From the NCBI GenBank assembly GCA_947307015.1, contig CAMZHV010000029.1, forward strand, positions 1 to 35,476: DNA of 35,476 nt. The letters are read 5' to 3'. Each line of letters starts with the position of its first letter. Position 1 is the stretch's first letter. The position numbers and the translations under genes were made by a program. The notes below the pieces were generated by a model, which had not been told where the DNA came from, did no database searches, and saw nothing but the letters and a program-made list of their open reading frames with translations. Of the stretch, positions 1 through 24,363 are shown piece by piece. The stretch comes from an uncultured Prevotellaceae bacterium (GTDB lineage: Bacteria > Bacteroidota > Bacteroidia > Bacteroidales > Bacteroidaceae).

Positions 1-378
1 GGCTATCTCTTTGCCACGGCTGGCGGCGAAACCACCAAAGCCGTTGTCAAGCAGAGTTGTGCAGGGTCTGATTTTGACACCCAGCGCAACCGCATGGCCG
101 CCAACTCCAACTACGGACTGCTCTCCGTGGAGGCTACTGTAGGCGACGACGGCCAGATTACATTCGGCATCAAAGAACCCACCAATGGCACCACCTGGCT
201 CGTATGGGACAACTTCACCCTGACTTATCAAGGTCCCGCTCCTGATCGCATAGAACAAATAGTAAATAGTAAATCGTCAAATAGTGAATGTTTCGACCTC
301 AGTGGTCGTAAAATCGTAAACAGAAAATTGCCGAAAGGCGTTTATATCATCAATGGACGTAAAATACTCGTGAAATGA
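1..378 (+). CDS. C-terminal part of a large secreted protein with sorting-type tail (5' end outside window)
   Basis: The reading frame is open from base 1 to the TGA at 376-378, so this is the 3' end of a longer gene and the first ATG at 94 is internal. The visible 125 residues contain a beta-sandwich ending of the kind WLVWDNFTLTYQG, which recurs in the phosphatase and GH51 proteins of this operon (DNVTLTYCG, DNVGLTYYK) and looks like the end of a carbohydrate-binding-like module. A short linker follows, then the tail CFDLSGRK...KGVYIINGRKILVK, the abbreviated Prevotella version of a type IX secretion sorting domain. The linker (256-290) is made of near-repeats of AAATAGT. The stop overlaps the next ATG as ATGA, implying translational coupling. 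The catalytic function cannot be told from this piece. Confidence 0.8.
   Translation, partial: GYLFATAGGETTKAVVKQSCAGSDFDTQRNRMAANSNYGLLSVEATVGDDGQITFGIKEPTNGTTWLVWDNFTLTYQGPAPDRIEQIVNSKSSNSECFDLSGRKIVNRKLPKGVYIINGRKILVK
256..290 (+). repeat. Short tandem repeat in the linker before the sorting tail
   Basis: This is a run of near-copies of AAATAGT/AAATCGTC in frame in the linker between the last beta-sandwich and the tail. Similar A/T-rich tandem repeats sit at equivalent linker or end positions at 6441-6468, 14084-14113 and 28930-28960. Confidence 0.5.
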
Positions 379-1844
379 TACGACACAAAACGATAAATAT
401 TGTACTTGCGTTCGTGTTGGCCTGTATTCAGACCGCACGGGCACAAGTTTTTGTGCCCACCCTTCCTGACTCCGACGGACCGCACGCTTCCATGCGCTAT
501 CATGTCCGTGTCCGCCCCCTTGCAGGCGGGGCATGGCAGGGCGTTCCCGTGTTGCGCTGCGATGTCAACACACGGCGCGTGCAGCAGGCTGCCTTTGCCG
601 AATGGGACATGGGAGAACCTGTTGTCGTACAAATCGTAAATTGTAACTCCGTATATTCTAAAACGTCGCTAGTCGTTCGCCCCACTTCACGAGGCATCAC
701 GCCCACGATGATCAACGACAGCACCGTCCAACTCATCCTTCAGCGACCCGAATACCTCAGCGTGGAGTTCGATGGCGACCGCCAGCACAACCTCCACCTC
801 TTCGCCAATGCATCAGCACCCTCCATCACCCCTGATGGCGACGGCCTCGAGCAATGGGGCATCACCCCGCTTGGCGATACAGAGCCACGACGTATCATCA
901 ACTGGCAGGGAGAGCAGTCGCAAGATGTCTTCGTCCGCAATCCTAACCTCATCTACTTCCCTCCCGGTGTGCACAAGCCCAAAGACCTGCCTGGTGGCGA
1001 CATACGCATACCAAGCAACTGTACCGTATATCTCGCCCCCGGAGCAGTGGTCAAGGCACGCCTCATCGTCGATCATGCCGAAAACGTACGCATCATTGGG
1101 CGCGGCATCGTGGACCATCCGCTGCGCGGCGTCGAGATAACCCATTCACGCAACGTCATCGTTGACGGACTCACCTTCCTCAACCCTGCACATTACACCA
1201 TCTTTGGCGGCGAGAGTACCGACATCACCATACGCAACATCAAGACCTTCTCTGCACGCTCGTGGAGCGACGGCATAGACCTCATGTGTTGTCGCCGTGT
1301 GCACATTGAGAACTGTTTCCTCCGTACCAGCGATGACTGCATAGCCCTCTACAACCACCGCTGGTGGTACTGGGGCGGAAGCGAAGATATTGAAGTCTGT
1401 CGCTGCATCCTATGGCCAGACGTCGCACATCCCGTCAACATCGGGTCCCACGGCGACGACCGCAACGCCGACGGCGAGACGCTGCAACGCGTACACATCC
1501 ACGATTGTGACATCCTCGGCGACGATGCCGACGGACTCGGACTGCTCGCCATCAACTGCGGCGACAACAACCACATTCGCAACATACGCTTCACCCGCAT
1601 ACGAGCCGAGGCCCTGCGACGCTCACGCCCCTTCGACCTCCGCATCCTGCAGTCGCCGAAATACAACCGAGCCCCCGGCTGCTGTATCGACAGCATTGCC
1701 TTCGAAGATATCATCATACATCCCGATGTCCCCGACTCATGCATACTACCCAGCCGAGTAGAAGGCATGAAGGAGCACCCAGTGGGACGATACACCCTTG
1801 AGCGGGTCTCACACACCGCCGTCGTGACAGCAACCAATAAATGA
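375..1844 (+). CDS. Secreted beta-helix glycoside hydrolase, GH28/GH49-like
   Basis: 489 residues with a signal peptide (about 1-23, cleavage after ARA). Residues ~30-145 form a beta-sandwich with the motif SVEFDGD, resembling the N-terminal domain of GH49 enzymes. Residues ~165-470 form a right-handed beta-helix. Candidate catalytic residues sit where pectinase-fold hydrolases have them: Asp299 in WSDGID, Asp320-Asp321 in TSDDC, and His359 in IGSHGDD. The family acts on polysaccharides by inverting hydrolysis; polygalacturonase (GH28) or an alpha-glucan enzyme of GH49 type are both possible, and the exact substrate is not readable. There is no sorting tail, so it is probably periplasmic or released. 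It overlaps both neighbours by ATGA (375-378, 1841-1844). A paralogous domain lies in the middle of the fusion protein at 10620-14393, sharing the SVEFDGD, WADVAHP and AINCGDNN signatures. Confidence 0.85.
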   Translation: MIRHKTINIVLAFVLACIQTARAQVFVPTLPDSDGPHASMRYHVRVRPLAGGAWQGVPVLRCDVNTRRVQQAAFAEWDMGEPVVVQIVNCNSVYSKTSLVVRPTSRGITPTMINDSTVQLILQRPEYLSVEFDGDRQHNLHLFANASAPSITPDGDGLEQWGITPLGDTEPRRIINWQGEQSQDVFVRNPNLIYFPPGVHKPKDLPGGDIRIPSNCTVYLAPGAVVKARLIVDHAENVRIIGRGIVDHPLRGVEITHSRNVIVDGLTFLNPAHYTIFGGESTDITIRNIKTFSARSWSDGIDLMCCRRVHIENCFLRTSDDCIALYNHRWWYWGGSEDIEVCRCILWPDVAHPVNIGSHGDDRNADGETLQRVHIHDCDILGDDADGLGLLAINCGDNNHIRNIRFTRIRAEALRRSRPFDLRILQSPKYNRAPGCCIDSIAFEDIIIHPDVPDSCILPSRVEGMKEHPVGRYTLERVSHTAVVTATNK

Positions 1845-4800
1845 ACAATAATAATATAAACAAAAAAAGCAAACAGCTCATGAAACAGCTATTACGATTC
1901 TTTATGCTATGGCTCATCGGCCTGATGGCAACGAGCCTACAAGCCCAAACGTGGACGGCCAGTCCTGTAGGCAATGGCACTTTCTATCTTTACAGTGTCA
2001 GTGAGGGTAAGTTCATCACCGCCGGTACAACCAACTCCACTCGTGCTTCACTTACGACCCAAGGAGGCGTGGCCATGACATTTACTGCCGTAGATCAGGC
2101 TAACAATGTCTATTCCATCTCCACGGCTCCGACTTTCAATGACAACTTGACAATGGGCATTGGCAACGATGGTAACGAAGCCTACTTAGACGTAGCGGCA
2201 TCGGCCACCAATGCATCCAACTGGAAGTTCATTCCTGTCGAAGGCCAGGATAACACCTATTTCATCCAGTCGGTGAAGAATAGCAAATACATGGTAGCTC
2301 ACGCCACAAAACTAGACAGGACTTCCGTAACCAGCACAACACAGCCTACCACTAATAAGGGCTACTGGAAACTTGTAACCAAGGAGGCTTTGATAGAGAA
2401 TCTGTCAAATGCAACGGAAGAGAATCCCATCGATGCCACTTTTGCACTGATGAATCCTTTTTTTGCCGCATATGGTCGCATCTCGCTTTGGGGCACTGAC
2501 TATACGGATTATAATGGCGTTACCGACAACAAATGCATCGAACAGTTCAACCGCACCTTCGATATGTACCAAACCATAACTGGTCTTCCCAACGGCGTGT
2601 ATAAGATGCAGTGTCAGGGCTTCTATCGAATGGGAGGCAGGACAAATGCGCAAAGTAACAGGAATTCAGGTACTGAAACACTGAATGCAAAGTATTATAT
2701 CAATACGACGGACGGCTCATTGATGTCTATCTTCGACGATAATGATGCAACGGGTAGCTATAAGGATGGATACAATGAGAATAAAGCCTATGCCTTAGAT
2801 GACGGTGGCAATCATTATCTACCCAATTCGCTTAATCAGGCTTCCAACTGCTTCCTTGCAGGCTATTATAGGAATGAACCCATCAGAGCCGTTGTCACAG
2901 ACGGAACAATAAAGATAGGTTTTCGGAAAACGGTGACCGTCGGTGATGACTGGGCGGCATACGACAATGTGACGCTCACTTATTGTGGTATTGACCTATC
3001 CGCCCTTGTGGCAAGCTACGAGGAGCAATTAGCTAAAGCTAAAGCTCTTCTGTCAGAGCCAATGCAAGCCAGCGTGAAGTCAGCTTTGGATGCTGCCGTT
3101 ACTACTGCTGAGACCGATGTGAACACCGATTCGCAGGAGTGGTTGGAATCGACACTCAGCACCCTTGGCACTGCCATCACCAATGCGCAGACCAGCAATG
3201 ACCTTTACACGGGTGCTATTCTCACAGCTGTTAATGGAATGAAGGCACAATCGACGAGCGAGAGCGTCAAAAGCGCTCTTCAGACGAAATACGATGAAGG
3301 TGAATACACCTCGGCTGCTGACGTCTATGCCATCTATCAGCCATTGGAAATTGCTGCCCTTTCGCGCGACGCAAACACCTCTTATACTTCCGCCATTATC
3401 AACCCAAGCTTTGAGTTGGGCAACATGGATGGCTGGAATTGTCTGACCACAGGCAATGATACGGGCGTACACCACACGGACAATGCCACCTATTCCTATT
3501 CCGGCACGGATGGCGACTATCTCTTCAATTCTTGGGCTACGAGTGTTAAGACGCTCGACGTGGGTCAGACCGTCACCGGATTGCCTTCAGGTTATTATTC
3601 CCTTTCCGCTGTCGTGGCCAGCTTCGGCGATGGTGCGGCGGTGACCATGACGGCCAACGGTACCTCGGCCAGTGTACATCCCACCGATGCCGGCAATGTG
3701 GACGGCCACAAAACAGTGGGCTATACATTGACCGTAGATAATATCTTCGTGTCGGATGGTTCTCTCTCTTTCCGTGTACAGAACACGGGTAAGGGACAGA
3801 CTTTGCTCAAGGCCGACCACTTTCAACTGACACTGGCAAACAGCTATGTGGACAATTATACAGACTTGACACTTGAACTCAATGTGGAAAACGGCGAAGT
3901 GGCGGGCTATCTCACCAACACGACCTACACGGAAAGCACGGCAAGCGTCATTGGGAATTATTCTACGGACGCCGCTTTGCGCAATGACCAGCCGAATACA
4001 ATAATGATTCCTTTGCCTGAGCAGGCAGAGGATGCCACCCTCAGCCTTGCTCTTAACAGCACCTATACCGATGCTGAGACGTTCACCCTCACTGCCGGTA
4101 CTGTGCTCTACGAGGTGAAGAACCTGCTTCCACAACAGACATATTATTATAAGGTAGAAGCCAGTGGCGACGTCGTAGCCAACGGAACGATTACCACAAC
4201 AGGACACTTGCGCATGATAAAGGCTGATGGCATTGCGAACATGCGCGACCTGGGCGGCTGGACGAATGCCGACGGCAACCGCATCCGCTACGGCAAACTG
4301 TTCCGTGGCTCGGAGCTTCGAGGCGGAAAGACCTATACCGCCAGCGATGCTGACCTCGCGATGCTGAAGGATCAGCTCCATATCGGTGCCGAGGTGGATC
4401 TGCGCGAAGACATAGACTTCGGTTCGGGTACGATGAATGCCTCTGCCATCGATGGTGCAACCTACTACTATGCGAACCTTAGTCGTTGGAGCGAGGATGC
4501 CCTGAACTTCGACAACGCCAAGTTCAAGAGTGCCTTCGACCTTGTGCTCGCTGCCTTGAAGGCTGACAAGGCCGCTTATTTCCACTGCATCTTCGGTGCC
4601 GACCGCACAGGTTGCTTCGCCATGCTGCTCGAAGGTCTGCTGGGTCTGCCCGTAGATCAGCTCTACAAGGACTACGAACTCACCTCGTTCTCCATACTGC
4701 GCGACAAGACAGGTATCGACCACAAACTGCAGTACATCAAGGCGCTGCAGGGCGACAACCTTCAGCAGAAGTTCTACAACTACTGGCGCGGCGCCGTGGG

Positions 4801-6559
4801 CGTGAGCGAGAGCGACCTCAACGATTTCATCAACATCATGATTGACGGCTCCAGCCCCATCACTACGGCTACGCTGGCTGACCTCCCCGCCAAAGCTGTG
4901 ACAGACGGTGACTACTATATCTATCTGCCCACACAGCAGAAATTCCTAAGCCGCGGCCGCAGTTACGGCACTCAAGGTGTGCCTGACAGTTATGGCGTTC
5001 CTGCCACCGTTACCACCAACGGCGTGGGCGTCACCACCATCAAGTTCCTCGACAACAACCTCTACTTCGGCAGCGATGGCATGACGGACAAAGCCGAAAA
5101 CTACAACAGCGTGTCGTGGAGCGTCGAGCAGCGGGGTGATGACCTCGTGATGAAGTCGCACAACGGTAAATACTTCTATATGAAAGAAGGAACGCGCGCG
5201 TATGTCGATGCTGCTTCGGCTGCCAATGCTGATGCTGTGACGTTCAAGTCACGGACTGATCATGATGACCTCGTCGCTGCCACGCAGAATGCAAATATCC
5301 TTGCCGCTGCCACGGCTGCAGGCATCAATGCCGACGACATCGCTGCTTTTAACTCTCAACTGTCAACTAACTACACCGCTGTAGCCTCCACTGCTACCAT
5401 CAAAAGCGCCACCGCAGGCAGTACCACCAACTGGGCGCTTAGCGAGCCCTACGCCCACGGCGAGACGGCCAACCACGGCAACGCTTACAACGTCGGCAAC
5501 TACGGAGGCGAACTCTATCAGAAAAATGCCAGCGTCAGTCAGACTGTCACCGTGCCCCACGCTGGCCTCTACAAACTCACCCTCAATGCACTCTACCGTC
5601 AGGGCTCCAAGGAGCTGTGCTATGCCGCAGGTCAGAAGGGGTTTGAGATGAGCAATGCCTATGTGAGCGTCAACGGCACCTATTTCGCTCAGATTCCTTC
5701 GTGGTACAGCGGATGCGCTTCCATGAGCGACCCCGACAACACAGACCAAGCCGTAGCCCGATTCAATGCTGGACAGTACAAGGTAGAGGTCTATGCCTAC
5801 ATCGACGACTCCAAGACGGCGACCATCAAAGTGAACGTGCCCGGCTTCGTGCCCCTCGGCTGGTGTATCTTCAACAACTTCGCCCTGACGGAGTACGCCA
5901 AGGAAGTGACCATCGTTGAATCCGCCACTACAGCCCCCGAAGCTTGCGACTTCGCAGCCGTCACCCTCATACGTACCCTCCAGCCTGACATCTGGAACAC
6001 GCTGAGCCTGCCTTTCGCCCTTGACCGCGACCAGATTGCCGCTTCGTCACTCAAGGATGCTACCATCTATGCCTTCTCTCAGTCCGATGCCTCCAACATC
6101 ACTTTCGAGAGCGCCTACACCATCGAGGCAGGCAAGCCCTACTTGGTGAAACTGCCCGATGAGGCTGCAGCTATCCAGAATCCCACCTTCACGGGTGTCA
6201 CCGTCGAAGCCACCGAGGGTGAAACCGAAGGCACTGTAGGCAACGTGCAGTTTGTGGGTCAGACCTACAACAAGTCGCTGGACGGTGTCGCCAACGTCTG
6301 CTACCTCTCTACCAACGGCAAGGTGAAGCAGCTCTCTGACGGCGGAAGCATCAAGGGTCTGCGTGCCTACTTCATCGTTCCCGATGCCCAGCAAGGTGTC
6401 AAGCTATTCTTCAATTCAATAGAGGATGGCATCGAAGCAATTGACAATGGACAGTTGACAATGGACAATGCTGAGATTTACAACCTCGCAGGACAGCGAC
6501 TGAAGAAGGCTCAGCGCGGCGTAAATATTATCAACGGCAAGAAGGTTCTGATTAAGTGA
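1841..6559 (+). CDS. Secreted multidomain protein with tyrosine-phosphatase domain and carbohydrate-binding-like modules
   Basis: 1,572 residues; the start may instead be ATG 1880 (MKQLLRFF), which directly opens the signal peptide (cleavage after LQA). Modules read in order: a beta-trefoil/ricin-like repeat (~37-180), a beta-sandwich carbohydrate-binding-like module (~197-384), a helical linker (~386-508), a second sandwich (~515-665), a fibronectin-III-like domain (~670-785), a phosphatase domain (~787-1000), a second trefoil-like domain (~1020-1130), a third sandwich (~1180-1355), a beta-rich domain (~1365-1530), and the tail RGVNIINGKKVLIK. The phosphatase has NMRDLGG (from residue ~795) and the CX5R loop HCIFGADRTG with Cys916, Asp921 and Arg922, as in the Y_phosphatase3 family (PF13350), so the catalytic cysteine and arginine are present. 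Family members hydrolyse phosphotyrosine or phosphoinositides; the substrate outside the cell is unknown. A 14-nt unit repeated twice (6441-6468) forms the linker before the tail. Confidence 0.85.
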   Translation: MNNNNINKKSKQLMKQLLRFFMLWLIGLMATSLQAQTWTASPVGNGTFYLYSVSEGKFITAGTTNSTRASLTTQGGVAMTFTAVDQANNVYSISTAPTFNDNLTMGIGNDGNEAYLDVAASATNASNWKFIPVEGQDNTYFIQSVKNSKYMVAHATKLDRTSVTSTTQPTTNKGYWKLVTKEALIENLSNATEENPIDATFALMNPFFAAYGRISLWGTDYTDYNGVTDNKCIEQFNRTFDMYQTITGLPNGVYKMQCQGFYRMGGRTNAQSNRNSGTETLNAKYYINTTDGSLMSIFDDNDATGSYKDGYNENKAYALDDGGNHYLPNSLNQASNCFLAGYYRNEPIRAVVTDGTIKIGFRKTVTVGDDWAAYDNVTLTYCGIDLSALVASYEEQLAKAKALLSEPMQASVKSALDAAVTTAETDVNTDSQEWLESTLSTLGTAITNAQTSNDLYTGAILTAVNGMKAQSTSESVKSALQTKYDEGEYTSAADVYAIYQPLEIAALSRDANTSYTSAIINPSFELGNMDGWNCLTTGNDTGVHHTDNATYSYSGTDGDYLFNSWATSVKTLDVGQTVTGLPSGYYSLSAVVASFGDGAAVTMTANGTSASVHPTDAGNVDGHKTVGYTLTVDNIFVSDGSLSFRVQNTGKGQTLLKADHFQLTLANSYVDNYTDLTLELNVENGEVAGYLTNTTYTESTASVIGNYSTDAALRNDQPNTIMIPLPEQAEDATLSLALNSTYTDAETFTLTAGTVLYEVKNLLPQQTYYYKVEASGDVVANGTITTTGHLRMIKADGIANMRDLGGWTNADGNRIRYGKLFRGSELRGGKTYTASDADLAMLKDQLHIGAEVDLREDIDFGSGTMNASAIDGATYYYANLSRWSEDALNFDNAKFKSAFDLVLAALKADKAAYFHCIFGADRTGCFAMLLEGLLGLPVDQLYKDYELTSFSILRDKTGIDHKLQYIKALQGDNLQQKFYNYWRGAVGVSESDLNDFINIMIDGSSPITTATLADLPAKAVTDGDYYIYLPTQQKFLSRGRSYGTQGVPDSYGVPATVTTNGVGVTTIKFLDNNLYFGSDGMTDKAENYNSVSWSVEQRGDDLVMKSHNGKYFYMKEGTRAYVDAASAANADAVTFKSRTDHDDLVAATQNANILAAATAAGINADDIAAFNSQLSTNYTAVASTATIKSATAGSTTNWALSEPYAHGETANHGNAYNVGNYGGELYQKNASVSQTVTVPHAGLYKLTLNALYRQGSKELCYAAGQKGFEMSNAYVSVNGTYFAQIPSWYSGCASMSDPDNTDQAVARFNAGQYKVEVYAYIDDSKTATIKVNVPGFVPLGWCIFNNFALTEYAKEVTIVESATTAPEACDFAAVTLIRTLQPDIWNTLSLPFALDRDQIAASSLKDATIYAFSQSDASNITFESAYTIEAGKPYLVKLPDEAAAIQNPTFTGVTVEATEGETEGTVGNVQFVGQTYNKSLDGVANVCYLSTNGKVKQLSDGGSIKGLRAYFIVPDAQQGVKLFFNSIEDGIEAIDNGQLTMDNAEIYNLAGQRLKKAQRGVNIINGKKVLIK
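6441..6468 (+). repeat. Two tandem copies of a 14-nt unit in frame
   Basis: The unit TTGACAATGGACAG occurs twice (second copy ends in A) and is translated as part of the linker just before the C-terminal tail of the phosphatase protein. Confidence 0.75.
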
Positions 6560-6819: not shown

Positions 6820-9800
6820 ATGCGTAATAGGGTTATCACTTCTATCTTTTCACTATTCACCGTTGTGTTTAGTGCTATGTCGCAGGTAAGCTTCGACTTC
6901 TCCACGGCGCAGCGCGGCCCTGTCATCGGGCCGCTACACTACGGTATCTTCTACGAAGAGATCAACCACGCGGGCGACGGAGGACTCTATGCCGAGCTCA
7001 TCCGCAATGGTTCCATGGAGGAAAATCGCTCGAATCCCGACTACTGGTGGACAATCGGCGATGCCACGTTCAGTATCTCGTCGCAGAACCTCATTAATGG
7101 CGCTCAGAAGCGGGCCATGCACCTCAACCTGACGAAGACGGGTGATGGAACACGCAATATCGGTTATTGGGGTATCAATATTGTGAAAGGCCAGACATAT
7201 CGTGCTAGCTTCTGGGTGCGTACAGCCAACAACTGGACGGGTGACCTTACCCTCACCCTTGAAAGTTATGAAGGAGCAGACCTTGGACACTCTATTGTTC
7301 ACGTCACCGATGCGGGACAATGGAAGAAATACACCGCTGAAATCACAGCCACGGGCTCCTATCAGCTTGGATGGTTTGCTATCCGAGGGAGCAAGGCTGG
7401 AACCATCTACTTGGATTGCGTCAGCCTCTTCCCGCCAACCTACAAGGATCGCCCGAACGGGATGCGCCGCGACTTGGCAGAAAAACTGGAAGCACTGCAC
7501 CCACGTTTCATGCGTTTCCCCGGTGGCTGCTACATCGAGGGCGGCAACCGCTATCAGTGGCGCCACACCGTCGGCCCCGTAGAGGAACGACTGGGCATCT
7601 ACAACAGCCATTGGGGCTATCCCGTATCCAATGGCATGGGCTACCATGAGTTCCTGCAATTGGCTGAAGACCTTGGCGCGGAGCCCTTGTTCGTGGTCAA
7701 CGTGGGTTTGGGTCACGGATGGTTGCAAGACTATCAGCATATCGAGGGCTTCATCCAGGAGGCACTGGATGCGCTGGAGTATGCCAACGGCGATGTCACC
7801 ACTTATTGGGGCGCCAAGCGTGCAGCGGCAGGACATCCCGAGCCTTTCAACCTGCATCTCATAGAAATCGGTAACGAGAACTACAATTTCCATGCCGACG
7901 ACAACACCGACCAGAGTGACCACTATGCCGAGCGCTTCAAGCAGTTCTACGATGCCATCAAGGCACGCTGGCCAGAGGTCACGTGTATCGGCAATGTTGA
8001 GAGTTGGGGCACTGACAATCCCACCTGGCGCAACCGATATGCCGTGGATGTGGTCGATGAGCACTACTACCGCTCACCCGACTGGTTTGCTGCCAACTAC
8101 CACAAGTATGACAACAATAGCCGTAGCAGCCACAAAATCTACAACGGTGAGTATGCGGTCACCAGTGATTTTGGAACCAACGGAACACTGAAGGCTGCGC
8201 TCGGAGAGGCCATTTATATGGCTGGAATGGAACGTAATTCAGATGTCTGCATCATGGCCAGCTACGCACCCATTTTCATGAATGAGAACGAGGCGCAGTG
8301 GCGGCCCGATATGATTCACTACAATGCCCATTCCTCCTTCGGCACACCTTCTTATTGGGCACAGCAGATGATGGCATCCAACGTTGGTAACCAAAACATC
8401 ACATGGACAGAGACGGGCAACAGCATCAGTCTTGCCGCTGGCGCACGCTTGGGCTTGGGATCATGGAATACTGATGTGACATACAGCAACCTAAAAGTGA
8501 CCAATGGAAAAGGTGCTATCGTATTCGACCAAACCGAACCTTTCCATTCGCCGGCATCAACACAGGGTACTGCCCATGTCTTTGGCGTGGAGACGGACAA
8601 CTGCACTATTGAGGTGGATGCCGTCAAAAACGCGGGTGACGAAGGCTTCCTCCTCTGCTTTGCCTACGCCGACGGAAACAACTATGCATGGTGGAACCTC
8701 GGTGGATGGGGCAACGAGCGTCACGGCGTGGAACAGGCGGTGAACGGTTCGAAGACAACCCTTTCCGCCGCTGACGGAACTATCGAGACAGGAAGAACCT
8801 ATCACCTGAAGGTCGTACGTAGCGGACTTACGGCACTATGTTATCTCGACGGAGAACTCGTACACACTATCACCCTCTCCGAGGCAGCAGGCCAGCAACT
8901 TTACCTCTGTGCATCCTTGAGTGATACTGAGGATGCAGCCATTCTGAAGGTGATCAACTATGGCGGTGCCGACATCCCTGCCACTTTCCGCTTCAGCGAT
9001 GCCACAATCGGCGGCGCAGCACAAGTGCGTGTCATGAGCAATCCTGACAACTACGCTGAGAACTCCATGGACAACCCCATGAACGTTTGCCCCAGAAAAG
9101 CTCAACTCTCCGCTGTCAATTCACAGTTCTCTTACAATGTTCCCGCCTACTCCCTCTCCGTAATCACAGTACCACTCTCTGCCGTCAGCCCAGAGGCTAT
9201 GCTGCAACCTACAACGCCACCCGCACCCGCCATCCGCTACGGTTTCGAGGACGGCGAAGTAAGAGATGATGCAGCCTCCCTCAACGGCACGCTGCAAGGT
9301 AGTGCCGCCGTACTGGAACTTGCCGATGGAAATCGCGCCCTCTATACCGGGGGCAATGAGGAGAATGGATATTTGGATCTCGGAGGTGATGCCGCACAAG
9401 CTATCGGTACTGTCCTCAATGGGAAGGCGTGGAGCGTCAGTATTAACCTACTACTGACCGAAGGAGGCAATCTCGACAACTACTGTTGGGCATGGAACGT
9501 CAACAATGGTACGAGCAGCTATCTGGGGCTCATCAGTCAGGCCAACAACCAGAACTGGTATTTCGAAAAAGTGCGCTCCGGCACATGCAAGGTCAGATCA
9601 CATGCGGGGCTGAGCCAAAACATGTGGCATAACATCACAATCACTTCCGACACTGAAGCTACATGCATCTACGTTGATGGACAACTGCGTAATACGAAAG
9701 CCTCCAATACCACAGCCCTCACCCTGAACAGCAACACCATGGCATGGCTTGGGCGCAGTCCTTTCGAGGCAGACGCCTATATGACGGGCACTTTCTTCGA

Positions 9801-10623
9801 CGACCTCAACGTCTATGACCGCGCCCTCACACCGGCGCAGGTGCTGGCGTTATACGAGGTAGCAGCCACGAAGGCTACCGGATGCGAAGCACTGCTACCA
9901 GTCCCCGACACCGAACCCCATACAGAAGCCGTCAATCTCATCGGTGATAACACCGAGGCTGACCTCACTCTCCTCCTCCGTAACCCCGACTTCTCCGATG
10001 GAAACGACGGATGGGAAGGAACGCCTTTCAGCGCGGCACCGGGTACCGTGGCTGAACATTACTACCAGCTTTTCGATACCTATCAGGTGCTGAAGAACAT
10101 GCCCGCAGGGCATTATCGTCTCAGTTGGCAGGGTTTCTATCGGAACGGCAACATCCAGAACGCATGGCTGCGCCACACGATGGGTATGGAAGATAAGGCA
10201 GAGGTTTATGTTGCCGCCAATACCCACCAAGAATGGTCCGACCTCGCTCAGGGAGCCATGCTCTCGCTCTATGATCCATCTACCCCCTACACCTACGAGC
10301 CCTACACTTACCCGGACGACATCAGCACGGCAAGCCGGGCTTTCTCTAACGGATACTATACACAGCACCTTGACTTTGAACTGTCGGATGTAAGTGATTT
10401 GCGAATTGGCTTCCGCCACTTCACCCCAACAGTTTACGACTGGGCGTGTGTGGATAATGTCGGTCTTACCTATTACAAGGATGGAACTATAGTGAAGAAT
10501 ATACGAGAGAAGAAAGAAGAAAGAACGCCCTTGATATATGATTTATTCGGACGAATCATCCAGCACTCACCACTGCGAAAGGGAATATACATCATCAATG
10601 ACAGGAAAGTGCTAGTCAAATGA
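6820..10623 (+). CDS. Secreted alpha-L-arabinofuranosidase, GH51, with LamG and carbohydrate-binding-like modules
   Basis: 1,267 residues with a signal peptide (~1-22). A GH51 TIM barrel follows, with a CBM4/9-like sandwich between its first strand and the main barrel (~75-195). The acid/base is Glu353 in EIGNEN and the nucleophile is Glu444 in YNGEY, both matching GH51. Residues ~526-700 form a concanavalin-like (DUF1080/LamG-type) sandwich inserted between barrel and the GH51 C-terminal beta-domain (~705-782). After that come a LamG-3-type domain (~805-1012), the operon's recurrent sandwich module (~1048-1215), and the tail KGIYIINDRKVLVK. GH51 enzymes release terminal arabinofuranose from arabinans, arabinoxylans and arabinogalactans. 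The tail suggests export by the type IX system and surface attachment. The stop overlaps the next start as ATGA (10620-10623). Confidence 0.93.
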   Translation: MRNRVITSIFSLFTVVFSAMSQVSFDFSTAQRGPVIGPLHYGIFYEEINHAGDGGLYAELIRNGSMEENRSNPDYWWTIGDATFSISSQNLINGAQKRAMHLNLTKTGDGTRNIGYWGINIVKGQTYRASFWVRTANNWTGDLTLTLESYEGADLGHSIVHVTDAGQWKKYTAEITATGSYQLGWFAIRGSKAGTIYLDCVSLFPPTYKDRPNGMRRDLAEKLEALHPRFMRFPGGCYIEGGNRYQWRHTVGPVEERLGIYNSHWGYPVSNGMGYHEFLQLAEDLGAEPLFVVNVGLGHGWLQDYQHIEGFIQEALDALEYANGDVTTYWGAKRAAAGHPEPFNLHLIEIGNENYNFHADDNTDQSDHYAERFKQFYDAIKARWPEVTCIGNVESWGTDNPTWRNRYAVDVVDEHYYRSPDWFAANYHKYDNNSRSSHKIYNGEYAVTSDFGTNGTLKAALGEAIYMAGMERNSDVCIMASYAPIFMNENEAQWRPDMIHYNAHSSFGTPSYWAQQMMASNVGNQNITWTETGNSISLAAGARLGLGSWNTDVTYSNLKVTNGKGAIVFDQTEPFHSPASTQGTAHVFGVETDNCTIEVDAVKNAGDEGFLLCFAYADGNNYAWWNLGGWGNERHGVEQAVNGSKTTLSAADGTIETGRTYHLKVVRSGLTALCYLDGELVHTITLSEAAGQQLYLCASLSDTEDAAILKVINYGGADIPATFRFSDATIGGAAQVRVMSNPDNYAENSMDNPMNVCPRKAQLSAVNSQFSYNVPAYSLSVITVPLSAVSPEAMLQPTTPPAPAIRYGFEDGEVRDDAASLNGTLQGSAAVLELADGNRALYTGGNEENGYLDLGGDAAQAIGTVLNGKAWSVSINLLLTEGGNLDNYCWAWNVNNGTSSYLGLISQANNQNWYFEKVRSGTCKVRSHAGLSQNMWHNITITSDTEATCIYVDGQLRNTKASNTTALTLNSNTMAWLGRSPFEADAYMTGTFFDDLNVYDRALTPAQVLALYEVAATKATGCEALLPVPDTEPHTEAVNLIGDNTEADLTLLLRNPDFSDGNDGWEGTPFSAAPGTVAEHYYQLFDTYQVLKNMPAGHYRLSWQGFYRNGNIQNAWLRHTMGMEDKAEVYVAANTHQEWSDLAQGAMLSLYDPSTPYTYEPYTYPDDISTASRAFSNGYYTQHLDFELSDVSDLRIGFRHFTPTVYDWACVDNVGLTYYKDGTIVKNIREKKEERTPLIYDLFGRIIQHSPLRKGIYIINDRKVLVK

Positions 10624-13600
10624 AAAAGTTTTTTCTCACCCTCGCGCTTCTCTGCGCAAGTCATTTTTCATTTTTAGCTTATCACCTTTCATTCGCTTCA
10701 GCGCTCGCGCAGGAGTATAAGATGGCTGGCCCTTACGAAGTGGTGGCGCGCGATGGAGAGTTCCGTAGTAGCAAAAGCGGCAGCGAGCGCGATATGAAGG
10801 CGGCGTGGGACTTCGCCAAAGAGGGCAAGCATGATGAGGCGGTGCGTATCATCAATGCATACGCGGAGAAGCTGCAACGACTGGACGGTCACGATGCGCC
10901 GCTGTGTGCAATTCAAGGATATTGGTTGGTGAGGGCGATGATAGAAATGAAGACCCTCTCCCCGCTCCCCCGTGAGGGGGAGAGCCTCACTTCGTTCGAT
11001 AGCAACGCGCAGCCACTCCCCTCCATTACGGGAGGGGTTGGGGGTGGGTCTTGGTCCTCTATGATTCGCCGTGCTTTTCTTCCCATGATGGAAAAGTTTG
11101 AGGCGGACAGCCCGTATGCTAACGGCAATTGGGGAGCGATTGTGAACCGCTTCCGAATGGCCTGTGCTATCGCCATCGGAGACTCGGCGATGTATCAGGC
11201 TGCTATCGACTATTACCTACACGCCTACGACAACGGCTCGTTACCGAAATATGTCGGCGAGACGGGGCAGTGTCAGGAGACGGGGCGCGATCAGGCACAT
11301 GTGCAGTTAGGCCTCGGAGCGCTGTGCGACATCTGCGAAATGGCTTGGCAGCAGGGCGATGACCTATGGGGAGCGCTCGACAACCGCCTAATGAAGGGCA
11401 TCGAATACTCCGCCCGCTACAATCTCGGCTACGATGTACCCTTCGAGACGTGGACGGACTGCACAGGACTCTACAATGACTGGACGGAACCAGGCTCGAT
11501 GGGACGTGGTCGTATTCGCTGCATCTACGACCTGCCCTATAACCATTTCGTGAAGCGCAAAGGACTGAAGATGCCTTACACAAAGAAACTGCTCGACCTA
11601 CAGGCAAAGGCCGAAAAGCGAGGCGAGATTCAACAAAACCCAGAGGCTAATCAGTTCACCGTAAAGGGCGTGACAGGCTCCCTCCCTATGGGGGAGGGCG
11701 GGGGGAGAGGCCCCCTCCATCAGCTCTTTTCCTACGCCGCCCCCGATGGTGCACCGCTGAAGCGCGACTATGATGTATTCGTGCAGCCGCGAGGCAGTAA
11801 GGAGTGGACGAGGGTGGATACATATATGGCGAAGGTCAATAGCCCCCTCCCGACCTCCCCCAAGGGGGAGGGGCTCAAGCATCAGGTGAGTGAAATCTCC
11901 TATTGCATATTCGATTTCACGGGCGATGTGTTTGTGAAGGTTATAAGCAAAAACAAGAAGTTCAAGGCCGCGAGGATAAGGCCAGACTACAGGGGCGTGA
12001 TTGCCAACGTGCAAAATGATAGCACCGTACAGTTCCTGCTTTTTCAGCCAGAGAACGTCAGCGTGGAGTTTGACGGGGATATAACTGATAATTTGCTCGT
12101 GTTTACGTCCAAGCCGCCAATGAGCAAGGAAGAGGCTGAGAAGCAGGCGAAGAAAGAAGGGTGTGCTTTCAAATGCTACGAATCAGGACTCTACAATCAG
12201 CAGGACACCATATACATTAGTTCGAACACTACGGTTTACTTGGAGGGTGGCAGCTATTTCACTGGCACTTTCGCCATCAACGATGCTGAGAACGTGAGCA
12301 TTCTTGGTCGAGGCATCGCACGGCCTGAACGTGGCTACGAGGGTGCTCATGTCCATCGCTCGAAAAATGTGCTGATTGACGGCCTTGTGCTCAACACCTG
12401 CCCCATCGGTGAATCGCAGAACGTAACCCTGCACGATGTCCGCAGCATCTCGCATCCCGGCTGGGGCGATGGACTGAATGTTTTTGGCGGCTCCAGCGAC
12501 ATCATCTTCGACCGCGTGTTTTGCCGCAACTCAGATGACTGCACTACAGCCTACGCCACCCGCAAGGGCTTCAACGGATCTACCCGTAACGTGACCATGC
12601 GTAACTCTACGCTTTGGGCCGACGTGGCACATCCCATCTTCATCGGCATCCACGGTAATGCTGAGCGTGGCGACACCATCGAGAACCTGCATTACGAGAA
12701 CATCGACATCCTCTTTCAGGCCGAGCCACAGGTGGACTATCAAGGCTGCATGGCCATCAACTGCGGCGACAACAACCTCGTACGCAACGTCACCTTCGAG
12801 AATATCCGCATTGAGCAGATCCTTCAGGGAAGTTTACTACAAGTCAAGGTAGGCTACAACCAAAAATACTGCGCAGCACCAGGCCGTGGCGTAGAAAATG
12901 TCACCTTCAGAAATATCCGCTATAAGGGTACAACGCCCAACCTCTCCATCATCAACGGCTACAACGATGAGCGCAAGGTGAAAGGCATCACCTTCGAGGG
13001 TATCAAGATCAATGGTCGCCTGCTGCACGACAAGATGCCTGGCAAGCCTGCGTGGTATAAAACCGCCGACTACATTCCCATGTATGTGGGCAATCATGTG
13101 GAGAACGTCGTGTTCAGTAAGGACAGCCGCAGTACGATGGTCAGCCAGTCGCTGAGCTACTGCTCCTCGCAGGTGGACCGCGCGTTAGAGGTACTGCGTC
13201 CATACGACTTCACGATGATGCCACGAAATATATTGAATGGGGAAAAAGTTTGGAACCTCCGCAAAGCCAAACCTGAAGAATGGTGTTCCGGTTTTTGGCC
13301 TGGTATCCTGTGGATGACCTTTGCCTATAACAAGAGCGAGGCCGTGCAGAAGGCTGCAAAGGGTTACACCGATGCTTTGATTCCCGTCGTGGAGGCTCCC
13401 GTCTATGACCACGACCTCGGCTTCATCACCATCAATTCATTCCTGAAGGGCTACGAAGTAACGAAAGAGCCTCGCTACCGCGAAGTGGCTCTGCGTGCTG
13501 CCGACTCCCTCGCCACGCTCTTCAATCCCACCGTCGGCACGATACTCTCATGGCCGCGCCACGTGAAGGACTACGGCGGCCATAACACCATCATGGACAA

Positions 13601-14393
13601 CATGATGAATCTCGAGTTATTGTTTTGGGCAAGCAAAGAGCAGACCCACCCCCTTACCCCTCCCGTCAAGGGAGGGGAGCTCCAGTTCTCTGGAAAACAA
13701 AAGGATGGCAACGCGCCAGCCCTCCTCCCCATTACGGGGGAGGCCGAGAGGGGGTCTTTGTATGATATAGCCGTGCGCCACGCAGAAACAACGATGAAGA
13801 ACCACTTCCGCAAGGATGGTAGCTGTTACCACGTGGCTGTGTATGACACCCTCGACGGCCATTTCGTGAAGGGCGTAACGCATCAGGGCTACTCCGACAA
13901 TTCCATGTGGAGTCGCGGACAGGCATGGGCCATCTACGGCTACACGATGGTCTATCGCTACACAAAAGACCGACGTTTCCTCGACTTCGCACAGAAAGTC
14001 ACCGACATCTATCTGAAACGCTTGAAAGAGACATCAGACGATTGGGTGCCCTTCTGGGATATGGACGATCCAGAAATACCGGAAGTGAAAAGTGAAAGAG
14101 TGAAAAGTGAAAAATTAAAGGATGTTTCAGCCGCCTGCATCGTTGCCTCCGCTTTGTTAGAACTGTCTGATTACGTTTCAGCCGACCGGGCTACCACCTA
14201 CCGCGACTTTGCCATCAATATGCTCCGTGACCTCAGCACCGACCGCTATCAGAGCCGCGACAAGAACGTATCCTTCCTCCTCCATTCCACTGGTCACCAT
14301 CCTGCCGGCTCAGAGATTGATGCCAGCATCATTTATGCCGACTATTACTATCTCGAAGCTTTACAAAAGCTTTTAACCCAAATCGGTCATTAG
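10620..14393 (+). CDS. Three-enzyme fusion: alginate_lyase-like + GH28/49-like + GH88-like unsaturated uronyl hydrolase
   Basis: 1,257 residues with a signal peptide (~1-30, cleavage after ALA). Residues ~35-345 resemble the alpha/alpha alginate_lyase superfamily (PF05426 type), with ETGRDQAH at 220-227 and a YNDWTEP motif. Residues ~375-850 repeat the two-domain layout of the 375-1844 protein: SVEFDGD, then a beta-helix with Asp617 (GWGDG), Asp639-Asp640 (NSDDC) and His678 (GIHGN). Residues ~853-1257 form a GH88 barrel with Asp932 (HDLGF) and Asp993 (IMDNMMN), corresponding to the catalytic pair of the Bacillus unsaturated glucuronyl hydrolase, plus SRGQAW and DYYYLEAL. The inferred role is eliminative and hydrolytic cleavage of a uronic-acid polymer, then removal of the unsaturated sugar. 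Four G/C-rich palindromic insertions are translated in frame. The last codons and the TAG stop lie in a mobile repeat. There is no sorting tail. Confidence 0.85.
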   Translation: MKKFFLTLALLCASHFSFLAYHLSFASALAQEYKMAGPYEVVARDGEFRSSKSGSERDMKAAWDFAKEGKHDEAVRIINAYAEKLQRLDGHDAPLCAIQGYWLVRAMIEMKTLSPLPREGESLTSFDSNAQPLPSITGGVGGGSWSSMIRRAFLPMMEKFEADSPYANGNWGAIVNRFRMACAIAIGDSAMYQAAIDYYLHAYDNGSLPKYVGETGQCQETGRDQAHVQLGLGALCDICEMAWQQGDDLWGALDNRLMKGIEYSARYNLGYDVPFETWTDCTGLYNDWTEPGSMGRGRIRCIYDLPYNHFVKRKGLKMPYTKKLLDLQAKAEKRGEIQQNPEANQFTVKGVTGSLPMGEGGGRGPLHQLFSYAAPDGAPLKRDYDVFVQPRGSKEWTRVDTYMAKVNSPLPTSPKGEGLKHQVSEISYCIFDFTGDVFVKVISKNKKFKAARIRPDYRGVIANVQNDSTVQFLLFQPENVSVEFDGDITDNLLVFTSKPPMSKEEAEKQAKKEGCAFKCYESGLYNQQDTIYISSNTTVYLEGGSYFTGTFAINDAENVSILGRGIARPERGYEGAHVHRSKNVLIDGLVLNTCPIGESQNVTLHDVRSISHPGWGDGLNVFGGSSDIIFDRVFCRNSDDCTTAYATRKGFNGSTRNVTMRNSTLWADVAHPIFIGIHGNAERGDTIENLHYENIDILFQAEPQVDYQGCMAINCGDNNLVRNVTFENIRIEQILQGSLLQVKVGYNQKYCAAPGRGVENVTFRNIRYKGTTPNLSIINGYNDERKVKGITFEGIKINGRLLHDKMPGKPAWYKTADYIPMYVGNHVENVVFSKDSRSTMVSQSLSYCSSQVDRALEVLRPYDFTMMPRNILNGEKVWNLRKAKPEEWCSGFWPGILWMTFAYNKSEAVQKAAKGYTDALIPVVEAPVYDHDLGFITINSFLKGYEVTKEPRYREVALRAADSLATLFNPTVGTILSWPRHVKDYGGHNTIMDNMMNLELLFWASKEQTHPLTPPVKGGELQFSGKQKDGNAPALLPITGEAERGSLYDIAVRHAETTMKNHFRKDGSCYHVAVYDTLDGHFVKGVTHQGYSDNSMWSRGQAWAIYGYTMVYRYTKDRRFLDFAQKVTDIYLKRLKETSDDWVPFWDMDDPEIPEVKSERVKSEKLKDVSAACIVASALLELSDYVSADRATTYRDFAINMLRDLSTDRYQSRDKNVSFLLHSTGHHPAGSEIDASIIYADYYYLEALQKLLTQIGH
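10950..11052 (+). repeat. Composite palindromic repeat inserted in frame (site 1)
   Basis: The 103-bp segment begins AAGACCC and ends GGGTCTT. It contains two G/C-rich palindromes (CTCCCCC..GGGGGAG and ACTCCCCTCC..GGAGGGG) joined by a stretch with AGCAACGCGCAGCC. It encodes a low-complexity Pro/Gly/Ser peptide at residues ~111-145 of the fusion enzyme. The site at 13642-13757 has the same layout, including GGCAACGCGCCAGCC. Confidence 0.85.
11674..11722 (+). repeat. Palindromic repeat inserted in frame (site 2)
   Basis: This is a single G/C-rich palindromic unit (CTCCCTCCC, then GGGGGAGGG) followed by GGGGGGAGAGGCCCCC. It is translated as GSLPMGEGGGRGPL at about residues 352-366, in the linker after the lyase-like domain. 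Confidence 0.75.
11841..11875 (+). repeat. Palindromic repeat inserted in frame (site 3)
   Basis: A 35-bp unit opening AGCCCC and closing GGGGCT with CCTCCCCC/GGGGGAGG inside. It is translated as SPLPTSPKGEGL (about residues 408-419), between beta-strands of the GH49-like N-terminal domain. Confidence 0.8.
13642..13757 (+). repeat. Composite palindromic repeat inserted in frame (site 4)
   Basis: A 116-bp segment bounded by AGACCC and GGGTCT with two G/C-rich palindromes separated by a spacer. It encodes a low-complexity loop (about residues 1008-1046) in the GH88 barrel, shortly after the catalytic Asp993. The same composite architecture as site 1 shows a repeated family rather than chance. 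Confidence 0.85.
14084..14113 (+). repeat. Two tandem copies of a 15-nt unit in the GH88 domain
   Basis: The unit AGTGAAAAGTGAAAG is present twice (last base differs), translated as EVKSERVKSEKLK, a charged loop in the GH88 domain. Confidence 0.75.
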
Positions 14394-18899: not shown

Positions 18900-20189
18900 A
18901 TGACAATAGCTCAAATCCCTGTGCTGCTGCTCACCGGTTACCTCGGCAGCGGCAAGACAACACTCCTCAACCGCATCCTCAACAACCGCCGCGGCATCCG
19001 TTTTGCCGTCATCGTCAACGATATAGGTGAAGTGAACATCGATGCCGACCTCATTGAGAAAGGCGGCATCGTTGGGCAGAAGGACGACAGCCTGGTGGCT
19101 CTGCAGAACGGCTGCATCTGCTGCACGCTGAAAATGGACCTCGTGGAACAGCTGCGCGACATCACTCGTCAGCAACGTTTCGACTACATCGTCATCGAAG
19201 CCAGCGGCATCTGCGAACCTGCGCCTATCGCCCAGACCATCTGCTCTATGCCTGTCATGGGGCCGGAATATGTCAAGGACGGCGTACCCGTCGTGGACAG
19301 CATCGTCACCGTGGTCGACGCGCTACGGATGCGCGATGAATTCGGCAGCGGCGAGTCGCTCCTGCGCCCCAACCTCGACGAAGATGACATCGAGAACCTG
19401 GTTATCCAACAGATTGAGTTCTGCAATATCATCCTGTTGAACAAAGCTTCGGAAGTGACACCTGATGAGTTAGGACGTGTCCGCGAGATCATCCGTGCCT
19501 TGCAGCCCAAGGCTGAAATCATCGTCTGCGACTACTGCGATGTCGACTTCGACAAAATCCTGAATACACACGCCTTTGACTTCGACAAAGTTGCCACCTC
19601 TGCCGCTTGGATTGACGCCATCGAACACCATCACGACGACGACGATGATGATGATGAAGAGGAAGAAGAGGAACATGAGCATCACCACCACCACGATGAT
19701 GGAGATGAAGACGAAGAAGAGGAACATGAGCACCACCACCACGATGATGAAGAGGAACACCACCATCACCACCACCATCATCATCATCACCATGACGACG
19801 AAGGCGAGGCGGAGGAGTACGGCATAGGCACTTTTGTCTACTACCGCCGTCAACCCTTGAACCTCGGTTTGTTCGACGAGTTTGTCGCACGCAAATGGCC
19901 CCGCGGTGTCATCCGTGCCAAAGGTATCTGCTGGTTCTACGGCGAACCTGACACCTGTTATGTCTTTGAGCAAGCAGGCAAGCAGGTCAGCCTCCGCGAT
20001 GCAGGCAAGTGGTATGTCACGATGCCCGACGACGAGCTACGCGACTTGATGGCACAGACACCCGCCCTCGTCCGCGATTGGGACAAGCAGTACGGAGATC
20101 GTATGCAGAAGCTCGTGTTCATCGGTCAGCACCTGGACCGCGAAGCCATTACGGCAGAACTCGACAAATGCTTAGTCGACCTGCAATAA
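18900..20189 (+). CDS. CobW/COG0523-family GTPase metallochaperone with extreme His/Asp/Glu-rich linker
   Basis: 429 residues. The GTPase domain (1-~235) has the P-loop GYLGSGKTT (13-21), the metal-binding CxCC motif Cys72-Ile-Cys74-Cys75 and the SGICEP segment. Between it and the C-terminal CobW_C domain (~305-425, from YGIGTFVYYRRQPLN) lies a linker of about 60 residues (242-302) containing 26 histidines, including one run of twelve, mixed with Asp and Glu. COG0523 proteins use GTP hydrolysis to deliver metals, commonly zinc, to target enzymes; His-rich linkers in the family are thought to store or pass metal. The linker is unusually long and charged. Zinc is the likeliest metal, but nickel or cobalt cannot be excluded from sequence. 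No Zur-type operator was recognised upstream. Confidence 0.92.
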   Translation: MTIAQIPVLLLTGYLGSGKTTLLNRILNNRRGIRFAVIVNDIGEVNIDADLIEKGGIVGQKDDSLVALQNGCICCTLKMDLVEQLRDITRQQRFDYIVIEASGICEPAPIAQTICSMPVMGPEYVKDGVPVVDSIVTVVDALRMRDEFGSGESLLRPNLDEDDIENLVIQQIEFCNIILLNKASEVTPDELGRVREIIRALQPKAEIIVCDYCDVDFDKILNTHAFDFDKVATSAAWIDAIEHHHDDDDDDDEEEEEEHEHHHHHDDGDEDEEEEHEHHHHDDEEEHHHHHHHHHHHHDDEGEAEEYGIGTFVYYRRQPLNLGLFDEFVARKWPRGVIRAKGICWFYGEPDTCYVFEQAGKQVSLRDAGKWYVTMPDDELRDLMAQTPALVRDWDKQYGDRMQKLVFIGQHLDREAITAELDKCLVDLQ

Positions 20190-24295: not shown

Positions 24296-24303
24296 TACCT
24301 TTG
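24296..24303 (+). promoter_or_regulatory. -7 box of the CotH-domain gene
   Basis: TACCTTTG is an exact TAnnTTTG match. It rules against an upstream in-frame ATG-less extension and places the start at ATG 24364. Confidence 0.7.
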
Positions 24304-24330
24304 CGGCGCAGACTGAGCAGGTCTGCGCCG
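24304..24330 (+). promoter_or_regulatory. GC-rich hairpin at the presumed transcript 5' end
   Basis: CGGCGCAGAC pairs perfectly with GTCTGCGCCG around the loop TGAGCAG. It starts directly after the -7 box, so the transcript would begin in or just before it. It is followed by TTTGCTTT, which could make it a weak early terminator; alternatives are an mRNA-stabilising 5' stem or a protein-binding site. Confidence 0.6.
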
Positions 24331-24363
24331 TTTGCTTTATATTATAACTATAACCCAAAAAGA

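Follow-up and report, generated by a model that had tools for sequence, protein, structure and literature searches.

A three-domain protein with predicted lyase-fold, GH49/GH28-like and GH88 domains, interrupted by in-frame repeats, from an uncultured Prevotellaceae bacterium

Can one polypeptide carry successive activities for the breakdown of an acidic glycan? The question is raised by an open reading frame (ORF) in a 35,476-nt stretch of DNA, hereafter the window, from an uncultured Prevotellaceae bacterium, a relative of rumen Prevotella (GCA_947307015.1, contig CAMZHV010000029.1). The ORF (10620..14393, +) is a single frame of 1,257 residues without internal stop codons, which bears out a preliminary description of this DNA as encoding one polypeptide of that length. 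Three families had also been described as fused in the chain, and Pfam profiles for all three were matched, in the order Alginate_lyase (residues 163-267, 30.9 bits against a cut-off of 22.2), Glyco_hydro_28 (599-799, 24.9 against 22.9) and Glyco_hydro_88 (1040-1179, 30.2 against 26.6). All lie above the curated cut-offs, with small margins, and a scan of the protein against NCBIfam gave no match. The residues singled out at that stage (Asp617, Asp639-640, His678, Asp932 and Asp993) are all present and conserved. The earlier interpretation as a whole stands in part: the observation is real, and the names given to the domains need small changes.

Our preferred reading, held with moderate confidence, is that a single chain with predicted lyase-fold, GH49/GH28-like and GH88 domains would degrade one acidic glycan stepwise. 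Cleavage next to a uronic acid by the lyase domain would create an unsaturated end, the beta-helix domain would hydrolyse an adjacent linkage, and the unsaturated uronyl residue would be taken off by the GH88 domain; this order of action is one that we infer. The reading draws on the open frame, the family matches, the conserved acids of the GH88 and beta-helix domains, the repeated occurrence of the architecture, and the many relatives in which GH88 is encoded by a neighbouring gene of its own. The protein is probably exported to the periplasm, judged by eye from a signal peptide without a lipobox and no evident C-terminal sorting tail. No characterised protein of this domain order turned up in the open-licence literature, as judged by titles and the beginnings of abstracts.

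Conservation was assessed among homologues from a protein search that returned 1,537 matches, of which the best 120 were examined. The 89 proteins longer than 1,100 residues, including that of the window, were aligned, and the 31 of 1,100 residues or fewer were excluded. A further set (A1) comprised 88 of the 120 homologues. A lyase-domain set (A2) skipped 7 of 76 sequences and excluded the near-copy L073, and a third set (A3) comprised the window's middle domain and 36 of 76 others. The N-terminal domain was modelled with a predicted local distance difference test (pLDDT) score of 89.6 and showed the alpha/alpha toroid fold of PL5, PL38 and PL17 lyases (Pfam Alginate_lyase). The named comparison set was of alginate and multi-uronan lyases from these families: Smlt1473 (7fi2), PanPL, A1-III, BoPL38 (8bdq) and Alg17c. 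Residues N168, N170, W171, Q219, E220, R223, D224, Q225, H227 and Y303 were invariant in all 89 aligned proteins, and R296 was found in 88. The catalytic residues of PL5, PL38 and PL17 enzymes are Asn/Gln, His, Arg and Tyr, as reflected in part by the names of mutants among the fold matches, and N168, N170, H227, R296 and Y303 are candidate counterparts. The spacing of 7 between R296 and Y303 is presumably like that of PL5 enzymes. The domain may be active as a lyase. It differs from the enzymes of the comparison set in being fused to two hydrolase-type domains, and it gave no significant sequence match. A further search for the lyase family, made through a paralogous neighbour protein, matched only an immunoglobulin-like chain.

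The middle domain, described earlier as a GH28/49-like beta-helix, proved to be GH28 by Pfam profile and nearer GH49 by fold, with GH49 ranked first. As in GH49 enzymes, an N-terminal beta-sandwich precedes the beta-helix. Compared with GH49 isopullulanase and dextranase and with GH28 polygalacturonases, the domain is about 20% identical, and its family by sequence is GH28. D617, D639, D640 and H678 were found in 89 of 89 aligned proteins and K743 in 88; they are candidate counterparts of the three catalytic Asp, the His and the Lys of the GH28 motifs. The domain may be an ordinary GH28 pectinase, but GH49 ranks first by fold.

Assignment of the C-terminal domain was more direct. It is homologous in both sequence and fold to unsaturated glucuronyl hydrolases (UGL) and has the two catalytic aspartates of GH88. 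The columns of D932 and D993 hold Asn in the D115N and D175N mutant chains of the Streptococcus agalactiae enzyme, and both positions are Asp in 86 of the 89 long proteins, with a gap in the other three. The structures compared were 3wiw (heparin-specific), 2zzr and 3ani (S. agalactiae) and 1vd5 (Bacillus). The fold and the Asp pair are shared with them, and identity to 3wiw is 37% over 352 residues for a modelled relative, not the window protein itself. Unlike known GH88 enzymes, the window domain makes up the last third of a chain of three domains and is interrupted by a repeat. GH88 domains were also seen in frames of 927-959 residues in several congeners and, in one locus (L056, 15361-18147), fused to GH43 and not to its customary lyase/beta-helix partner.

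The same three-domain order, sought in other genomes as the preliminary description had proposed, was found repeatedly. It was seen in many homologues of the protein search. A scan of public genomes gave 224 relatives, of which the best 80 were kept; the three domains lay in one frame in 38 of these loci, with the lyase domain only partly in the fused frame in four (L034, L037, L039 and L043), and not in the other 42, including L051, which is cut by a contig end. Fused loci include the cultured Hallella seregens (L031) and Xylanibacter muris (L040). Within the window's genus, the full fused frame was present in 10 of 101 genomes, and by our own reading of the scan at least 23 of the 101 have a protein with the lyase and beta-helix domains that stops near residue 780. 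In a sample of 149 genomes from the order, with mostly a single genome for each genus, the fusion occurred among the matches listed only in the window's own genome; a separate beta-helix relative was found in seven, with a GH88 gene 1.6-6.5 kb away in three of the seven.

Loci with the domains split were examined for a separate GH88. Among 41 complete split loci, one was present in the fetched DNA in 24 and within 200 bp in 20. Of these 20, 14 are divergent and six lie on the same strand, and one of the six (L060) is downstream and overlaps by 4 nt. The shared part was used for a tree, built by a quick method from 77 rows (36 fused, 41 split), which requires 10 changes of the fused/split label, at least 7 of them forced by well-supported branches, against a mean of 25.5 for shuffled labels. 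The simplest reading is selection for a GH88 acting with the lyase and beta-helix protein, whether fused to it or separate.

Several observations weigh against stepwise action on one glycan. A single-sequence search of the lyase domain against PDB sequences found no match at E values up to 10, and a profile search against the PDB gave only a designed helical protein (E 0.12). For the beta-helix domain, a single-sequence search of PDB sequences gave no match and a profile search none at E up to 1. A repeat stretch of about 39 residues breaks up the GH88 domain of the window copy. No GH88 was found in the fetched DNA of 17 of the 41 split loci, where one flank was shorter than 4 kb in nine and both exceeded 6 kb in eight; in those eight, the enzyme may be encoded elsewhere in the genome, or none may be needed. 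The neighbouring genes, from which a substrate is suggested below, give a loose hint, with GH97 absent from 54 of 79 loci and a separate GH43 from 59.

We consider it unlikely, yet worth weighing, that the lyase-fold domain has lost lyase activity, or never had it, and acts in binding or as a scaffold, only the beta-helix and GH88 domains being enzymatic. Identity to the best PL5 fold matches is just 9-14%, the PDB searches gave no significant sequence match, and the Pfam match spans only profile positions 162-268 of 275. Against such a module stand the ten residues, from N168 to Y303, that are identical in every aligned protein, as expected of an active site. Paralogues encoded by neighbouring genes in L084 and L040, whose alignments were inspected, retain the QE-GRD-GH motif, and a GH88 requires the product of a lyase.

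It is rather improbable that the fusion is neutral, a stop codon having been lost between neighbouring operon genes whose modules act independently or on different substrates. Such an event is conceivable where split genes overlap by 4 nt, as in L060 and L082, and the fused and split states do swap repeatedly. In the split loci, however, the same GH88 partner occurs in three layouts (divergent, upstream and downstream), which suggests co-function over read-through, and 38 loci retain the fused order together with its conserved acids.

The most unusual feature of the protein is its in-frame repeats, which were absent from the preliminary description. Relative to 88 relatives, the window protein has five extra in-frame stretches, at residues ~112-147, 353-366, 409-419, 1009-1047 and 1154-1165; a near relative, P0004, has 1,155 residues. 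By sequence, sites 1-4 are C-rich/G-rich inverted repeats and site 5 is a short tandem repeat. Stable DNA folding was considered as a general property of the repeats and rejected, as only site 4 clearly beats shuffled sequences. The site-1 loop was modelled with pLDDT below 50, a low-confidence loop. In relatives, the same sites are empty, hold the same repeat (as in P0011 at site 1 and in P0036 at site 4), or are occupied by other palindromes or by tandem repeats that are unrelated. Among 85 of the 89 aligned proteins (four were excluded), loops at least 8 residues longer than the shortest occurred at sites 1-5 in 22, 6, 13, 31 and 23 rows, respectively; this extra length is partly non-repeat, and further insertion points exist. 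The five repeats are likely translated into flexible loops and probably leave the enzyme functional.

The site-1 repeat is a double palindrome of about 103 bp (window 10950-11058), composed of two inverted repeats, and is not confined to this gene. At least 61 full or partial matches were found in the 2.99-Mb genome with 40 of 174 candidates scored; for this and other repeat-rich genomes only part of the candidates were scored, so that copy numbers are lower bounds. Thirty site-1 loci were fetched (L089-L118), and the window and 20 others have the copy inside a gene frame. All 20 frames scanned, representing 19 genes because L100 and L116 share one, contain Pfam domains; nine loci were unscanned. 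Host genes include those for Mfd, ValS, UvrA, BipA, RF3, a MutS2-type protein and TruB, as well as carbamoyl-phosphate synthase, asparagine synthase, glutamate synthase, FeoB and a GH2. In L102, L109, L110 and L112 the named copy lies in no long frame. One codon phase is shared by 27 of 32 in-gene copies (12 of 14 forward, 15 of 18 backward), and the forward and backward phases share codon boundaries. In the window's site-1 copy another frame is also open in each direction, and the frames were picked as open, so that gene-breaking copies would go unseen. The repeat was found in 24 of 61 genomes, comprising 24 of 37 from this genus and 0 of 24 from other families; the sample did not extend to further genera of the same family.

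As a short palindromic repeat in many dispersed copies, the element resembles those of repetitive extragenic palindrome (REP) systems with REP-associated tyrosine transposases (RAYT). One RAYT-type (Y1_Tnp) gene was found in the 86% complete genome (L119, G000 C32:18081-18422). Its flanks hold other palindromes, so a role as mover of the site-1 repeat is not supported.

Two core genes were compared across genomes, 41 being searched for each. For BipA, all 35 other genomes matched show an interruption of the match at residue 397 and its continuation from residues 432-435, so that, among the genomes compared, only this one has the palindrome-derived insert of about 32-34 residues (L097; L150-L179). 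The two parts of BipA in G019 are 97% and 99% identical and lie 6 bases apart. At the DNA level, the empty site appears as one clean 96-nt gap only in L152, L153 and L156, and is ambiguous in L154, L155 and L159; the L151 locus was too short for this comparison. For RF3, matched in 37 genomes, 30 loci were returned (L120-L149). Between the motifs TTSVMEFDY and YKVNILDTPGH, 2 residues occur in 16 of these and 8-39 in 14. The 14 inserts comprise several unlike, partly repeat-like sequences, all in open frame and lying in a hairpin of RF3.

Taken with the window protein, these comparisons point, with fair but not high probability, to a genus-wide mobile coding palindrome of about 103 bp, which would be read in one codon phase in either orientation and translated as a loop in core and secreted proteins, the same loops being occupied by dissimilar repeats in sister species. 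That the repeats interrupt folded domains of essential proteins might instead suggest that they are skipped, by splicing or bypass, and not translated. This is very unlikely: skipping would need neither an open frame nor a single phase, while a single phase predominates among the in-gene copies, and in none of the 30 genomes read, including the 14 with an insert, is the RF3 frame interrupted at the site. Both sets were chosen as open frames, which biases them towards this result. Least credible of all is that the three-domain ORF is an assembly chimera of separate genes in a draft genome of 94 contigs, because recurrence of the same fused frame in independent genomes, the two cultured species among them, excludes chance or misjoining.

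Palindromic repeats inside ORFs, including uvrA, tRNA synthetase and truB genes, are known in other bacteria, and protein-coding palindromes of Rickettsia are cited in the same source (PMC3733652). A Bacteroidetes repeat class is listed there, and the intragenic section of that paper does not place it inside genes. The palindromes described here resemble these intragenic REPs and Rickettsia palindromic elements, as presented in that section, in lying in frame inside ORFs, with uvrA, a tRNA synthetase and truB among the hosts. They differ in that, among the genera sampled, one element was found in just a single one and keeps to one codon phase whichever way it is oriented. In-frame palindromes in genes of this group did not turn up in the open-licence literature, judged as above. 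The phenomenon is thus already known; what is apparently new, within that literature, is that such repeats lie inside genes of this genus, that both directions use a single codon phase, and that unlike repeats occupy the same loops.

The ORF overlaps the upstream GH51-type ORF by 4 nt, and these two and the two ORFs before them likely form a four-gene operon (Table 1). In 79 loci (L079 was excluded), families encoded within 10 kb were a second Alginate_lyase-family protein (41 loci), GH97 (25), a separate GH88 (22), GH43 (20), a two-component-type regulator (19), GH127 (10) and DUF4861 (6). In the window, GH51 and GH28 genes are found instead. Because of the neighbouring GH43, GH97, GH127 and GH51 genes, the substrate is suggested to be a side-chain glycan of plants that contains arabinose, galactose and uronic acid, for example arabinogalactan or a pectic side chain. 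A conserved neighbour of about 430 residues recurs in 10 loci (cluster c5; L066 14264-15571 and relatives), its representative having no Pfam or NCBIfam match; one neighbour protein in each of L066, L014 and L061 had no match in Pfam.

Table 1. Positions of the three-domain protein, its domains, residues and repeats, and of neighbouring genes in the window
Feature	Position	Residues	Strand	Basis or remark
Three-domain protein ORF	10620..14393	1,257 aa	+	Open frame; homologues of same domain order
Signal peptide, predicted Sec	10620..10712	~1-31	+	By eye; lipobox cysteine absent
PL5/PL38-type alpha/alpha lyase-fold domain, predicted	10719..11669	34-350	+	Pfam, structure model, fold match, conservation
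GH49/GH28-like domain, beta-sandwich then right-handed beta-helix	11715..13148	366-843	+	
Asp617, predicted catalytic	12468..12470	617	+	D in 89/89
Asp639-Asp640, predicted catalytic pair	12534..12539	639-640	+	D in 89/89 each
His678	12651..12653	678	+	H in 89/89
GH88 (alpha/alpha)-barrel domain	13149..14390	844-1257	+	
Asp932 (D115 of S. agalactiae UGL)	13413..13415	932	+	Alignment; D in 86/86 covering rows
Asp993 (D175 of S. agalactiae UGL)	13596..13598	993	+	Alignment; D in 86/86 covering rows
Repeat site 1, double-palindrome element, loop of lyase-fold domain	10953..11060		+	In frame; DNA folding z -1.67
Repeat site 2, single palindrome	11676..11717		+	In frame; DNA folding z -1.29
Repeat site 3, single palindrome	11844..11879		+	In frame; DNA folding z -0.46
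Repeat site 4, two palindromes in GH88 domain, between helices	13644..13760		+	DNA folding z -4.05
Repeat site 5, short tandem GTGAAAA-type repeat, GH88 loop	14079..14114		+	Without DNA folding
GH28-like protein, beta-helix paralogue	375..1844		+	Pfam, sequence comparison; 37% over query residues 531-778
Protein with Y_phosphatase3 (tyrosine-phosphatase-like) domain (794-960)	1841..6559	1,572 aa	+	Likely same operon
GH51-type arabinofuranosidase with CBM_4_9 and Laminin_G_3	6820..10623		+	Likely same operon

Elsewhere in the window, a CobW-type GTPase (18900-20189) has a long His/Asp/Glu-rich stretch between two Pfam domains, a 1,474-residue protein (24301-28725) has CotH kinase and lamin-tail domains, and a further protein (31623-34304) has six MBG_2 stretches.

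If the preferred reading is true, a single chain would combine lyase, beta-helix hydrolase and unsaturated-uronyl hydrolase into a self-contained toolset for an acidic glycan. The fusion could bring to light a lyase family that lacks any solved relative by sequence, and the advantage of fusion can be studied through the repeated gain and loss of GH88. For gene annotation and domain calling, the in-frame palindromes are a trap. They also indicate how mobile DNA may add peptide loops without breaking enzymes, a translation GTPase included. If a genus-wide coding palindrome is confirmed, the Bacteroidota would have an independent counterpart of their own to the Rickettsia palindromic elements, one that also amounts to a large-scale natural experiment in loop insertion.

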